A stretch of DNA of 52,541 nt, taken from positions 1 to 52,541 of the forward strand of contig JAJDNY010000031.1 of the NCBI GenBank assembly GCA_022340425.1, in the 5' to 3' direction. The first letter of the stretch is position 1, and each line of letters begins with the position of its first letter. A model generated the notes under the pieces. That model worked only from the letters and a program-made list of their open reading frames with translations. It was not told the DNA's origin and did not search any database. Positions 14,399-18,099 of this stretch are shown piece by piece. The translations under genes and the position numbers were made by a program. Origin of the DNA: Desulfobacteraceae bacterium. Lineage in GTDB: Bacteria; Desulfobacterota; Desulfobacteria; Desulfobacterales; JAABRJ01.

Positions 14399-14766
14399 GC
14401 CGGTTCTTTCATTCTGGTTTGATGGGTTTAAAGGACTGTCGCGGCAGCCGGCGTCCATCCGCTTGGCGGCCGCGCGGCGACCTGCGCCCCTGCTGTGACG
14501 GTATATAGAACCCGCGCTGGGGTTGTCAACCGTCTGTGCCGCGGCGGGTTTTTTGCGGCAGGCTTCCGATCAACCCCCGCCTTGCCGGGGTCGATACGCT
14601 TAAAAGGGCCGTGCAGCGGTGCCGGGCCGGGGAGTCAAAAAAGGAGCATGGCAATGGTGGCCTATGGGCTGTGGGGGCCGCCCGCGGGGCGGGCCAGGGT
14701 TATGGCGGCAGGGCTGCGGGTGACGGCATCGGTGGGCGTCTGCCGGATGTTTTTGGTCGCCCGGGA
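14399..14766. promoter_or_regulatory. Divergent region between purB and the MltF-like gene
   Basis: This 370-base stretch separates divergent genes. It contains the hairpin at 14537-14560 and a mini-ORF beginning at 14654 with a near-ideal Shine-Dalgarno. The segment tatatagaacc near 14503 is AT-rich and could belong to a promoter, but no confident -35/-10 pair is visible. No RNA gene was recognised. Confidence 0.35.
14537..14560. other. Short hairpin TGCCGC/GCGGCA
   Basis: A six-base stem with a 12-base loop that contains a T6 run. The T-run lies inside the loop rather than after the stem, so this is not a normal intrinsic terminator. It may be chance. Confidence 0.2.
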
Positions 14767-14812
14767 GTGCTTTCGCGACCGCTTGCTAAAGCACGCGCCG
14801 GAGGCTCCCTGA
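14654..14812 (+). CDS. Possible 52-codon leader ORF upstream of the MltF-like gene
   Basis: AAGGAG at 14641-14646 is seven bases from the ATG at 14654, an ideal spacing (a second in-frame ATG is at 14648). The frame encodes about 52 residues starting MVAYGLWG with mostly G or C at third positions and stops with TGA at 14810-14812. The stop overlaps a CTG in the frame of the MltF-like gene (CTGA), and GGAGG at 14800-14804 sits just before it. It may be a leader peptide coupled to the downstream gene, or its real beginning displaced by a frameshift. No homology is recognised. Confidence 0.3.
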   Translation: MVAYGLWGPPAGRARVMAAGLRVTASVGVCRMFLVARECFRDRLLKHAPEAP

Positions 14813-16299
14813 GGGTCTGGCGCGGCATAGAGGGTCTGCGGCCCAGGCCCAGGTCGTTTGCAACCCCTCTTTGGCATCGCCGGGGTGCAATCCGGTCCCT
14901 GCTGCTGGCCGCCGTCTGCCTACTGGGGTTTGCCGGGGTCTGCCACGGGTGGCGCTTCCAGCACGAACTCGAGGTGATCCGCCAGCGGGGCACCCTGCGG
15001 GTGCTGACCCGCAACGCGGCCACCTGCTATTTCCGCGGGGCGCACGGCTACGAGGGCTTCGAGCACGATCTTGCCAAAGCCTTTGCCCGCCAGCTGGGGG
15101 TCCGTCTGCAGCCGGTGGTGGTGGACACCCTGGGGGAGATGGTGGAGCGCCTGATCCGGGGCGAGGCCGATCTGATCGCATCCGACCTGGTGGTCACCCC
15201 GGCGCTCAAAAAACGCGTCGTTTTCGGTCCGGCCTACCGCAAGGTCCGCCAGCAGGTCATCGGCCGCCGGGGCGCGCCCGCGATCACAGCGGTTGACGAC
15301 CTCGACGGGCTCCCGATCTGGGTCAAGGCCGGCTCCGCCCAGCAGGGCCTGCTGGAGGAGCTGCGGCGGGAGCGGGGCGGGATTCGCTTGATGACGGTTT
15401 CCGGTTATGAAACCGAAGAGCTGCTGGAGATGGTCTGGCAGAAGATCATCCCGCTGACCGTCGCCGAGTCCAATGTCGTGGCCCTGAACCGGCGCTATTA
15501 CCCGGAGCTTTTGGTGCACCTGGACCTCCAGGCCAACTGTGAGGTCGCCTGGGCCCTGGCGCCGGGAAGCCTCCAGCTGCAGAAGGCGGTTTATCGCTGG
15601 TTTGCGCGACCGGAAACCCGGGCGCTGCTCAAAAGGCTCGACCAGCATTACTACGGCCACCTGGAAGCCTTCGATTACGTCGACCTGGTCAAATTCCGCA
15701 GCCGCATCCAGACGCGGCTGCCGCAGTTCATCCCCTTTTTCCAGGCTGCGGCCGAGGAAAACGGTTTCAGCTGGCTGCTGCTGGCGGCCCAGGCCTACCA
15801 GGAGTCCCACTGGGACCCCAAGGCCAAGAGCTTCACCGGCGTGCGCGGGATGATGATGCTGACCCTTGAAACCGCCAGCGAGCTGGGGGTCTCCAATCGC
15901 CTGGATGCCCGGCAGTCGATCTCCGCCGGTGGCCGCTACCTGGCCGATTTGCATCGCCGCATCGACCCCGCGGTACCGGAACCGGACCGGACCTATATGG
16001 CGCTGGCGGCCTACAACGTCGGCTTCGGCCACCTCCAGGACGCCCGCCTGCTGGCCGGCCGACTGGACAAGGCGGCCGACACCTGGCCTGCGGTTCGCGA
16101 CACCCTGCCGCTTTTGCGCCACCGCAAGTACTACCGCGACCTGGCCTATGGCTTCGCCCGCGGCGACGAACCGGTGCGCTACGTGGATGCGATCCGGACT
16201 TACAACAAAATTCTGGCGCAGCAGCTGGCGCGACTCGCCGCCCGTCAGCCCATCGAAAGAAGTGAGGTGATGTCAACCGGCCATGGCGACACGCAGTGA
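14767..16299 (+). CDS. MltF-like membrane-bound lytic transglycosylase
   Basis: The product joins an SBP family 3 domain (from LRVLTRNAATCYF to about the RLDQHYYGH segment) to a C-terminal SLT domain, the layout of MltF, which cleaves peptidoglycan in the periplasm. The catalytic glutamate is in AAQAYQESHWDP, followed by GVRGMMMLTLETA and YMALAAYNVGFGH. A signal sequence is visible (IRSLLLAAVCLLGFAGVCHG) but no ATG/GTG/TTG lies just ahead of it. The GTG at 14767 is my choice; GTG at 14536 or a CTG at 14809 behind GGAGG are alternatives. The 3' end overlaps the next gene by 17 bases. Confidence 0.88.
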   Translation: MLSRPLAKARAGGSLRVWRGIEGLRPRPRSFATPLWHRRGAIRSLLLAAVCLLGFAGVCHGWRFQHELEVIRQRGTLRVLTRNAATCYFRGAHGYEGFEHDLAKAFARQLGVRLQPVVVDTLGEMVERLIRGEADLIASDLVVTPALKKRVVFGPAYRKVRQQVIGRRGAPAITAVDDLDGLPIWVKAGSAQQGLLEELRRERGGIRLMTVSGYETEELLEMVWQKIIPLTVAESNVVALNRRYYPELLVHLDLQANCEVAWALAPGSLQLQKAVYRWFARPETRALLKRLDQHYYGHLEAFDYVDLVKFRSRIQTRLPQFIPFFQAAAEENGFSWLLLAAQAYQESHWDPKAKSFTGVRGMMMLTLETASELGVSNRLDARQSISAGGRYLADLHRRIDPAVPEPDRTYMALAAYNVGFGHLQDARLLAGRLDKAADTWPAVRDTLPLLRHRKYYRDLAYGFARGDEPVRYVDAIRTYNKILAQQLARLAARQPIERSEVMSTGHGDTQ

Positions 16300-17233
16300 G
16301 CGCCCAGACGCGGCCCCCACGGCCGCAGCGGTGCACCTCGCCGGAACGCTCGGCCGGCTGGGGGCACTTTACGGCCTCTGGTGGCTGGCCGCCCTGCTGA
16401 TCCAGACCGCTGGCGCGCCCCTGCGGGCCCTCGGGCCGTCTTTCGGAGCGGCCGCGGCGGTTTTGGCCACGGTCTGGGTCGCGGCCCAGTTCACCGCGGG
16501 CTTTGTTGTCCAGCTGGCCCCACGGTTGCACCGGCGCCCCCGGCGGCGGATCGTCCTGATCGTCGGCAGCATCGGCGTGGGCCTGATTTTCTGGCTGGTC
16601 GAGCGGCTTGGCGGCGGCATCCACCCGCTGCTGGCGCCGCTGGGCAGCGCCAATCTGGTGGTCTTCGCCTGCCTGGTGGGCACCTGGCTGCCGGATGGGC
16701 TGCGGCGGCCGGCGGAGCTGGTGCCGGTGGGGGTCCTGATGGCCCTGGTGGACGGCGCCAGCGTGCTGGCCGGACCCACCCGGCGGATTGCGGAAAGCAT
16801 TGAAACATACTATAAGGGGGGCATGACCGGCCCCCTGCCGGCCGGGGACGCGCTGCTGGTCAAGTCCGCCTTTTGGGGAAGCGGGGGCCTGCTGCCGATT
16901 TTCGGCGTCTCCGATTGGATCATGGTGGTCTTCCTGACAGGTGCGGCACTGAAGTTCGATCTGACCGACAACCTGGCCCCGACACCGCTTGGCGCCATGG
17001 TCCGGCGGGGCCGGACGGCGCTTTTTTTTCCGGTTGCGGCGGCGGGTTTGACCCTGGCCGTGTGGGTGGCCCAGTTCAGCGGGCGCCCCGTGCCGGCCCT
17101 GCCGCTGGTGGCCCTGGCGCATCTGGGCTGGTTCCTGCTGCGCTATCCCCACACCCGCCGCCTGAGCGCCGGCGACCGCCGTCTTTTGCTGGGGCTGCTG
17201 GGCATCGCGGCCCTGGCCTGGGCGGCCTGGTGA
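16283..17233 (+). CDS. Polytopic membrane protein, presenilin-like intramembrane aspartyl protease candidate
   Basis: The 316-residue protein has about nine or ten hydrophobic helices. Three features line up with presenilin/SPP-type (GxGD) intramembrane proteases, in order. Asp157 lies in a helix and is followed by ASVLAGPTRRIAESIE, similar in pattern to the region after the first presenilin aspartate. Asp211 lies in FGVSDWIMVVFLTGAA at the position of the GxGD aspartate, with Ser replacing the second Gly. PALP at 271-274 lies two helices later, like the PAL motif. Both the 54-residue spacing and the length match archaeal presenilin homologues. The assignment is my inference from motifs; the family may be inactive or only distantly related. 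It starts inside the MltF-like gene. Confidence 0.6.
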   Translation: MATRSERPDAAPTAAAVHLAGTLGRLGALYGLWWLAALLIQTAGAPLRALGPSFGAAAAVLATVWVAAQFTAGFVVQLAPRLHRRPRRRIVLIVGSIGVGLIFWLVERLGGGIHPLLAPLGSANLVVFACLVGTWLPDGLRRPAELVPVGVLMALVDGASVLAGPTRRIAESIETYYKGGMTGPLPAGDALLVKSAFWGSGGLLPIFGVSDWIMVVFLTGAALKFDLTDNLAPTPLGAMVRRGRTALFFPVAAAGLTLAVWVAQFSGRPVPALPLVALAHLGWFLLRYPHTRRLSAGDRRLLLGLLGIAALAWAAW

Positions 17234-17301: not shown

Positions 17302-18099
17302 ATGAACCAGACCGTTTTGATCACCGGCGCCTCTTCCGGTTTTGGCGCGAGCAGCGCCCGTCTTTTCGCCCGCCAGGGCTGGCGCCTGGTGCTGGCCGCC
17401 CGGCGCACGGAGCGCCTGGAATCCCTGCGGGCCGAGCTGGGCCACAGCGTCCCGGTGCACCTGCTGGTCCTGGACGTCACCGATCGCCGGGCGGTCGCGG
17501 CGGCCCTCGGCGGGCTGCCCGATGACTTCGCCGCGGTGGATCTGCTCGTCAACAACGCCGGGCTGGCGTTGGGCCTCGACATGGCCCCGGAGGCCGATCT
17601 GGACGATTGGGAGACCATGGTGGACACCAACATCAAGGGGCTGCTCTACTGCACCCGGGCCCTGCTGCCGGGCATGCTGCGCCGCGGCCGGGGGCACATC
17701 ATCAACATCGGGTCCATCGCCGGGGATTGGCCCTATCCCGGCGGCAACGTCTACGGCGCCACCAAGGCCTTCGTCAAACAGTTCTCCCGCAATCTGCGGG
17801 CCGACCTGCACGGCAGCGGCGTGCGGGTGACCAGCATCGAACCGGGCCTGGCGCAAACCGAATTTTCCCAGGTGCGCTTCAAGGGTGACGCCGGCAAGGC
17901 GGCCGGGGTCTACCGCGACACCCAGGCGCTGACGGCCGAGGACATCGCCGAGATCGTTTTTTGGGCGGCCACCCGGCCGGCCCACGTCAACATCAACCGC
18001 GTGGAGGTCATGCCCACCGGCCAGAGCTGGGGGCCGCTGCCGGTCCACAAGAACCCGCAGCCGACTGCCGGCGGAACGGTTCGAGGAGAAGTGCGTTGA
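17302..18099 (+). CDS. Short-chain dehydrogenase/reductase, YdfG-like
   Basis: The 265-residue SDR uses NAD(P)H to oxidise or reduce small hydroxy compounds in the cytoplasm. The cofactor motif is TGASSGFG (8-15), with NNAG at about 84-87. The catalytic residues are Ser138, Tyr151 and Lys155 (YGATK). The C-terminal stretch EPGLAQTEFSQVRFKGD is characteristic of the YdfG group, which oxidises 3-hydroxy acids such as L-allo-threonine and 3-hydroxypropionate. An arginine pair after strand 2 (AARR) suggests NADP preference. Start at 17302 follows AGGAGAAG. The stop overlaps the next start by four bases. Confidence 0.9.
   Translation: MNQTVLITGASSGFGASSARLFARQGWRLVLAARRTERLESLRAELGHSVPVHLLVLDVTDRRAVAAALGGLPDDFAAVDLLVNNAGLALGLDMAPEADLDDWETMVDTNIKGLLYCTRALLPGMLRRGRGHIINIGSIAGDWPYPGGNVYGATKAFVKQFSRNLRADLHGSGVRVTSIEPGLAQTEFSQVRFKGDAGKAAGVYRDTQALTAEDIAEIVFWAATRPAHVNINRVEVMPTGQSWGPLPVHKNPQPTAGGTVRGEVR

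Follow-up and report, generated by a model that had tools for sequence, protein, structure and literature searches.

A Desulfobacterota protein family with the aspartate pair, PAL motif and predicted fold of presenilin

Presenilin is the enzyme core behind the production of Alzheimer's amyloid. PSEN1 and PSEN2, the catalytic subunits of gamma-secretase, make up MEROPS family A22A; the SPP/SPPL enzymes stand in A22B, and the archaeal enzyme PSH (MCMJR1) is represented by PF06550. Solved presenilins have five helices ahead of the first catalytic Asp. The type IV prepilin peptidases (A24, PF01478) belong to the same MEROPS clan as A22 and, like the family considered here, are two-Asp bacterial membrane proteins – in their case proteases of the GxGD type. 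Presenilin-like proteases have been described from eukaryotes and archaea, and the 2010 report on the archaeal enzyme states that until then no such enzyme had been shown outside the eukaryotes (PMC2947513). Our searches of open-access literature brought up no account of a presenilin-fold family in bacteria; prior notice is not excluded (subscription papers and preprints were mostly outside the search).

The window analysed here is a 52,541-nucleotide stretch of DNA from a Desulfobacteraceae bacterium. One of its ORFs, with an ATG start at 16283, a TGA stop and a product of 316 aa, has the codon-position GC content of a coding sequence (0.74/0.55/0.86). A sequence-only reading had proposed that it encodes a presenilin-like intramembrane aspartyl protease with Asp157 in a helix, Asp211 in FGVSD and PALP at 271-274; translation of the ORF places all three where that reading put them (Table 1). 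We read the gene, with a probability of roughly three in four, as coding for a member of a bacterial sister family of presenilin/SPP/PSH whose proteins are diaspartyl intramembrane proteases. Established are the gene, the family, the invariance of the signature residues, the predicted fold together with the PDB entries that it matches, and the pattern of charges; proteolysis, strand addition and substrate class are inferred. The family, previously unnamed, keeps the two catalytic aspartates, PAL and the predicted presenilin fold while going unseen in standard sequence searches.

Table 1. Features of the presenilin-fold gene and its upstream neighbour (window coordinates)
Feature	Coordinates	Strand	Basis
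MltF-like ORF (SBP_bac_3 + SLT domains), upstream	14536..16299	+	domain matches; 17-nt overlap
Gene for 316-aa polytopic protein of predicted presenilin fold	16283..17233	+	ORF and homologues
Asp157 codon GAC, first putative catalytic Asp	16751..16753	+	82/82; predicted helix 143-163
S160...G164-P165-T166 after first Asp	16760..16780	+	S160, G164, P165 invariant
Predicted strand 192-196 between the two Asp helices	16856..16870	+	carries invariant K194
Predicted strand 203-208, running straight into second Asp helix	16889..16906	+	AF2 model
FGVSD 207-211, GxSD form of GxGD	16901..16915	+	start of predicted helix 209-224
Asp211 codon GAT, second putative catalytic Asp	16913..16915	+	82/82
PALP 271-274, CCGGCCCTGCCG	17093..17104	+	starts predicted helix 272-287; P271, L273 82/82

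Invariant residues and sequence searches

Collection of homologues yielded 81 full-length proteins from Desulfobacterota, mostly from Desulfuromonadales, which were aligned together with the window protein. The resulting 82-protein alignment is diverse (16 representatives at <60% identity; pairwise identity averages 34%, with a minimum of 24%), and only 15 of its columns are invariant: P148, D157, S160, G164, P165, P186, L192, K194, P205, F207, G208, D211, L256, P271 and L273. Among the eight Asp residues of the window protein D157 and D211 alone are invariant, and among its three PxL sites only 271-273. Since the invariant columns include both named aspartates, G208 (the first Gly of GxGD), P271 and L273, the D...GxSD...PALP pattern goes beyond chance. 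Non-conservation of the aspartates or of PALP among homologues would have refuted the sequence-only reading; instead, residues picked from a single sequence turned out to be those fixed in the family, and the claim has thereby passed an independent test.

Measured against the signature of A22, the family is split. The PAL motif is present in the C-terminal part, its middle position being Ala in 74 proteins, Val in six and Gly in two, and the two aspartates lie on adjacent predicted helices. The YD motif is absent (position 156 is Ala in 79 sequences, Val in two and Thr in one), and GxGD is incomplete, the second Gly being replaced by Ser (70), Ala (8), Thr (3) or Val (1): the Ser noted earlier in the window protein is there, and the replacement is family-wide. 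Presenilin's YD reads AD or VD in the bacterial family and its GLGD reads GVSD or GISD; these motifs are likewise altered relative to SPP/SPPL and PSH. Two loop residues before the GxSD helix, D189 (81/82) and K194 (82/82), equal the catalytic pair in conservation, and no role has been assigned to them.

No sequence-level method connects the family with known proteases. Searches of 35 family members with the Pfam A22 models (PF01080, PF04258 and PF06550) gave no match up to E=10, with none to PF01080 at the window gene itself; Pfam, NCBIfam and PDB sequence searches (including HMMER against the PDB) returned nothing for the family. PF06550 was found in none of 395 Desulfobacterota genomes, the Haloferax and Methanosarcina controls being positive. 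Alignment of profiles with hhalign, against PSH and one haloarchaeal (Natrinema) homologue, gave no match, and hmmsearch --max with PSEN1, PSH and decoys gave nothing above the decoys; both are weak negatives, as the A22 side was thin (Neff 1.6 for the hhalign profile). Only one local hmmsearch match to PSEN1 makes sense: it covers PALP, lies in register and scores a non-significant 6.6 bits. The PSH and PSEN1 sequences used in these comparisons were checked as identical with PDB entries 4hyc and 5a63.

Predicted fold and membrane orientation

AF2 models were built for the window protein (pLDDT 83, pTM 0.84) and for a homologue 37% identical to it (L007; pLDDT 88, pTM 0.89); both derive from one family alignment and are not fully independent. 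The order of elements is the same in each: the first-Asp helix, a shorter helix, two strands within the Asp-Asp loop, the GxSD helix, a further helix and a helix that begins at PALP. Foldseek placed PSEN1 entries on top of the PDB for both models, with probabilities of 0.98-1.00 and otherwise modest figures (best E-value 1.6e-3; TM-scores 0.36-0.41). In VIA-align, ranks 1-23 for the window model and 1-22 for the L007 model were taken entirely by PSEN1, PSEN2, SPPL2a and archaeal PSH, at Z 8.0-13.1 over about 150-205 aligned residues, and the first entry of an unrelated fold stood at Z 5.3 and 4.9, respectively. The comparison with known folds therefore matched presenilin, SPP and PSH and no transporter, as the sequence-only reading required, and the presenilin-fold feature of A22 is met in prediction only: two models, with top PDB entries all from A22.

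The ends of the PSEN1 alignments (294 to 456, 297 to 459, 293 to 455 and 292 to 454 for the window model) keep mostly one offset (-162), which sets P271 on P433 of PSEN1 – the P of an identical PALP – provided that the last helix is ungapped; at the end of the PSH alignments the PAL motif is off register by about three residues. The A22 layout of nine helices, the sixth carrying the first Asp, is not reproduced: in both models four transmembrane helices precede the first-Asp helix, versus five in presenilin. Because the structural alignments begin at model helix 2 and PSEN1 TM1, we infer that part of PSEN1 TM2-TM5 is probably left without an equivalent.

Among the closest known systems, presenilin shares the predicted fold over about 195-205 residues, the Asp pair on adjacent helices and the strands ahead of the second Asp helix; identity in the structural alignments is only 13-20%, the Asp-Asp loop measures 54 residues in the window protein versus 128, the predicted orientation is opposite, and nothing in the examined loci of the bacterial family points to partner subunits. 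SPP/SPPL proteins resemble the family in fold (SPPL2a, Z 11.3-11.9), in a predicted exoplasmic catalytic loop and in being encoded by a single free-standing gene, and differ in sequence (10-14% identity, no PF04258 match). Archaeal PSH is close in length (301 aa versus 316 in the window protein) and in Asp spacing (58 versus 54 residues), shares D-x-x-S-V after the first Asp with the window protein and is matched in fold at Z 8-10.5, whereas PF06550 and profile-profile comparison fail to recognise the family, whose hosts are bacterial. With the Asp pair, PAL and fold met, and YD, GxGD, helix count and profiles not, we call it a sister family rather than filing it in A22. The alternatives offered by the sequence-only reading – a bacterial member or a divergent relative – have consequently fared differently: divergent relative stands, while membership is weakened by the family-wide replacement of the YD Tyr and second GxGD Gly and by the lack of a curated profile match.

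Mean numbers of Lys plus Arg per loop alternate strongly across the family (2.4/0.6/2.4/0.3/2.1/2.4/4.4/0.1/3.5, the sixth value being accompanied by 2.8 acidic residues over about 45 residues). By the positive-inside pattern this argues for a cytoplasmic N-terminus and a periplasmic Asp-Asp loop: the predicted orientation is that of SPP, opposite to presenilin. The N-terminal segment of the window protein, unlike that of most homologues, has no Lys or Arg beside the first helix, so its own orientation rests on the other cytoplasmic loops, which are charged.

Putative mechanism and competing readings

If the family is proteolytic, then Asp157, within its transmembrane helix, and Asp211, where the following one starts, would form the catalytic pair and activate a water molecule between them, with the PAL loop (271-274) packed beside it. 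As in gamma-secretase, the substrate helix, once unwound, may be held through strand addition to the strand pair between the Asp helices. Such a core would sit in the inner membrane, N-terminus in and Asp-Asp loop periplasmic. From the SPP orientation, type II (N-in) transmembrane segments are the predicted preferred substrates, for example leftover signal peptides or signal-anchor proteins. There are no activity data; that the window protein is active as a diaspartyl intramembrane protease is inferred, and probable.

The same fold could also serve without cleavage, the buried Asp pair being kept for a chaperone function, an ion or proton pathway, or the binding of signal peptides. The absence of activity data leaves room for such a scaffold, as do the alteration of YD and of the second GxGD Gly across the whole family and the equal conservation of other polar residues (D189 and K194). 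A scaffold, however, has no need of an invariant Asp pair, first GxGD Gly and PAL Pro and Leu over 82 divergent proteins, and the altered Gly is not decisive: in archaeal MCMJR1/PSH the substitution G219A, which alters the residue just ahead of the second Asp, slows cleavage without abolishing it (PMC2947513), and Ser or Ala at this position is therefore compatible with slow activity. We regard a non-proteolytic role as unlikely, if still worth keeping in mind. Much less credible is that the protein is an unrelated, transporter-like polytopic protein in which D...GxSD...PALP resembles presenilin by chance. Sequence-profile methods give no link that would contradict this, and helical membrane bundles can approach VIA Z values of this size through helix arrangement alone; yet for two models every one of the first 22-23 ranks is filled from a single superfamily, below which the scores fall clearly to those of unrelated folds, and the signature named from one sequence coincides with the invariant residues of the family.

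A type IV prepilin peptidase that replaces a missing PilD in the window's genus would account for a different set of facts: A24 enzymes are bacterial, with two Asp and GxGD, no A24 gene was found in the window's own genome (97.7% complete) or in its congener, and in the former there are 11 prepilin-like N_methyl sites as well as several pilus/secretion ATPases. We hold this reading to be very unlikely. A normal, separate A24 gene is present in 11 of the 11 other family-carrying genomes tested; the window protein has no match to PF01478, nor has the family; PAL belongs to A22 and not to A24, and the fold matches are A22 enzymes (no A24 entry occurs among the VIA rows listed, which by itself does not exclude an A24 fold). 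The predicted active side, moreover, is periplasmic. Prepilins are cleaved on the cytoplasmic side. As carriers usually also have A24, a general role of the family as its genomes' prepilin peptidase was judged unlikely as well.

We return, then, to the reading of the family as diaspartyl intramembrane proteases. It seems likely that bacteria-native presenilin-fold proteases, with a GxSD site and a shortened helix set, exist in Desulfobacterota and have escaped notice for want of a sequence profile that reaches them. If so, presenilin-type proteolysis would occur in all three domains, in bacteria with the SPP orientation, and the family would bear on how presenilin and SPP arose. Since D, D, G and PxL are all that it retains, it would separate the unchangeable elements of the presenilin active site from those that can vary (the YD Tyr, the second GxGD Gly), and culturable bacteria such as Malonomonas rubra could supply small single-subunit enzymes for structure and inhibitor work.

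Distribution and neighbouring genes

Occurrence of the family is class-wide but patchy. By a profile from 35 sequences, 55 of the 194 genomes in the class around genome G232 carry the gene, against only two of 297 genomes drawn across the phylum; this patchiness offers natural presence/absence pairs for finding substrates. The homologue search gave a 39%-identical relative from a single other family within the order and, in the congener, a fragment at a contig end; scanning genome contigs yielded 34 loci, with few exceptions from Desulfuromonadales (Malonomonas rubra DSM 5091 among them). Viral contigs, when scanned, held no relatives, and a plasmid search found no family member. Genomes beyond Desulfobacterota were covered by the genome-contig scan alone, and the counts do not settle the wider distribution. 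In the tree a large Desulfuromonadales group is separated (forks 100/99) from a divergent group of 14 that includes the window protein; several branches of the latter are long, and placement within it is unsure.

With respect to prepilin processing, A24 escaped detection in the own genome and the congener (G000 and G001) both by profile and with a PilD protein query, while other genomes of the same order gave PilD at E about 1e-90. The ATPases of the own genome, beside its 11 N_methyl sites, include at least five strong T2SSE matches. That neither genome of the genus yields A24 means that both assemblies have a gap there or that the gene has truly been lost.

The start of the gene inside a lytic transglycosylase gene, from which a link to envelope turnover had been suggested, is real as an overlap, but it amounts to only 17 nt and is not conserved: in the congener (L037) the MltF-like ORF ends before the start of the family gene. 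MltF is adjacent in no other examined locus, so that adjacency is confined to the genus; the overlap appears incidental, and the envelope link is unsupported. A conserved operon was likewise rejected, since neighbours vary by lineage (VF530, RNase H, DUF1456, HNH, SUI1, DHH-DHHA2-CBS), and context accordingly points to no substrate.

Several neighbours deserve record. Downstream of the window gene, a short-chain dehydrogenase (window 17302-18099) probably starts at ATG 17302 and not at the longer-ORF start, 16873. In several Desulfuromonadales, with loci L010 (3910-4655), L019 and L028, a gene for a VF530-type DNA-binding protein directly follows the family gene, and in some of them an RNase H-like gene does so too; the arrangement is not conserved family-wide. 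Family f151 (L078, L079 and L080) has the gene ahead of one for a DHH-DHHA2 phosphoesterase that carries CBS and DRTGG domains.
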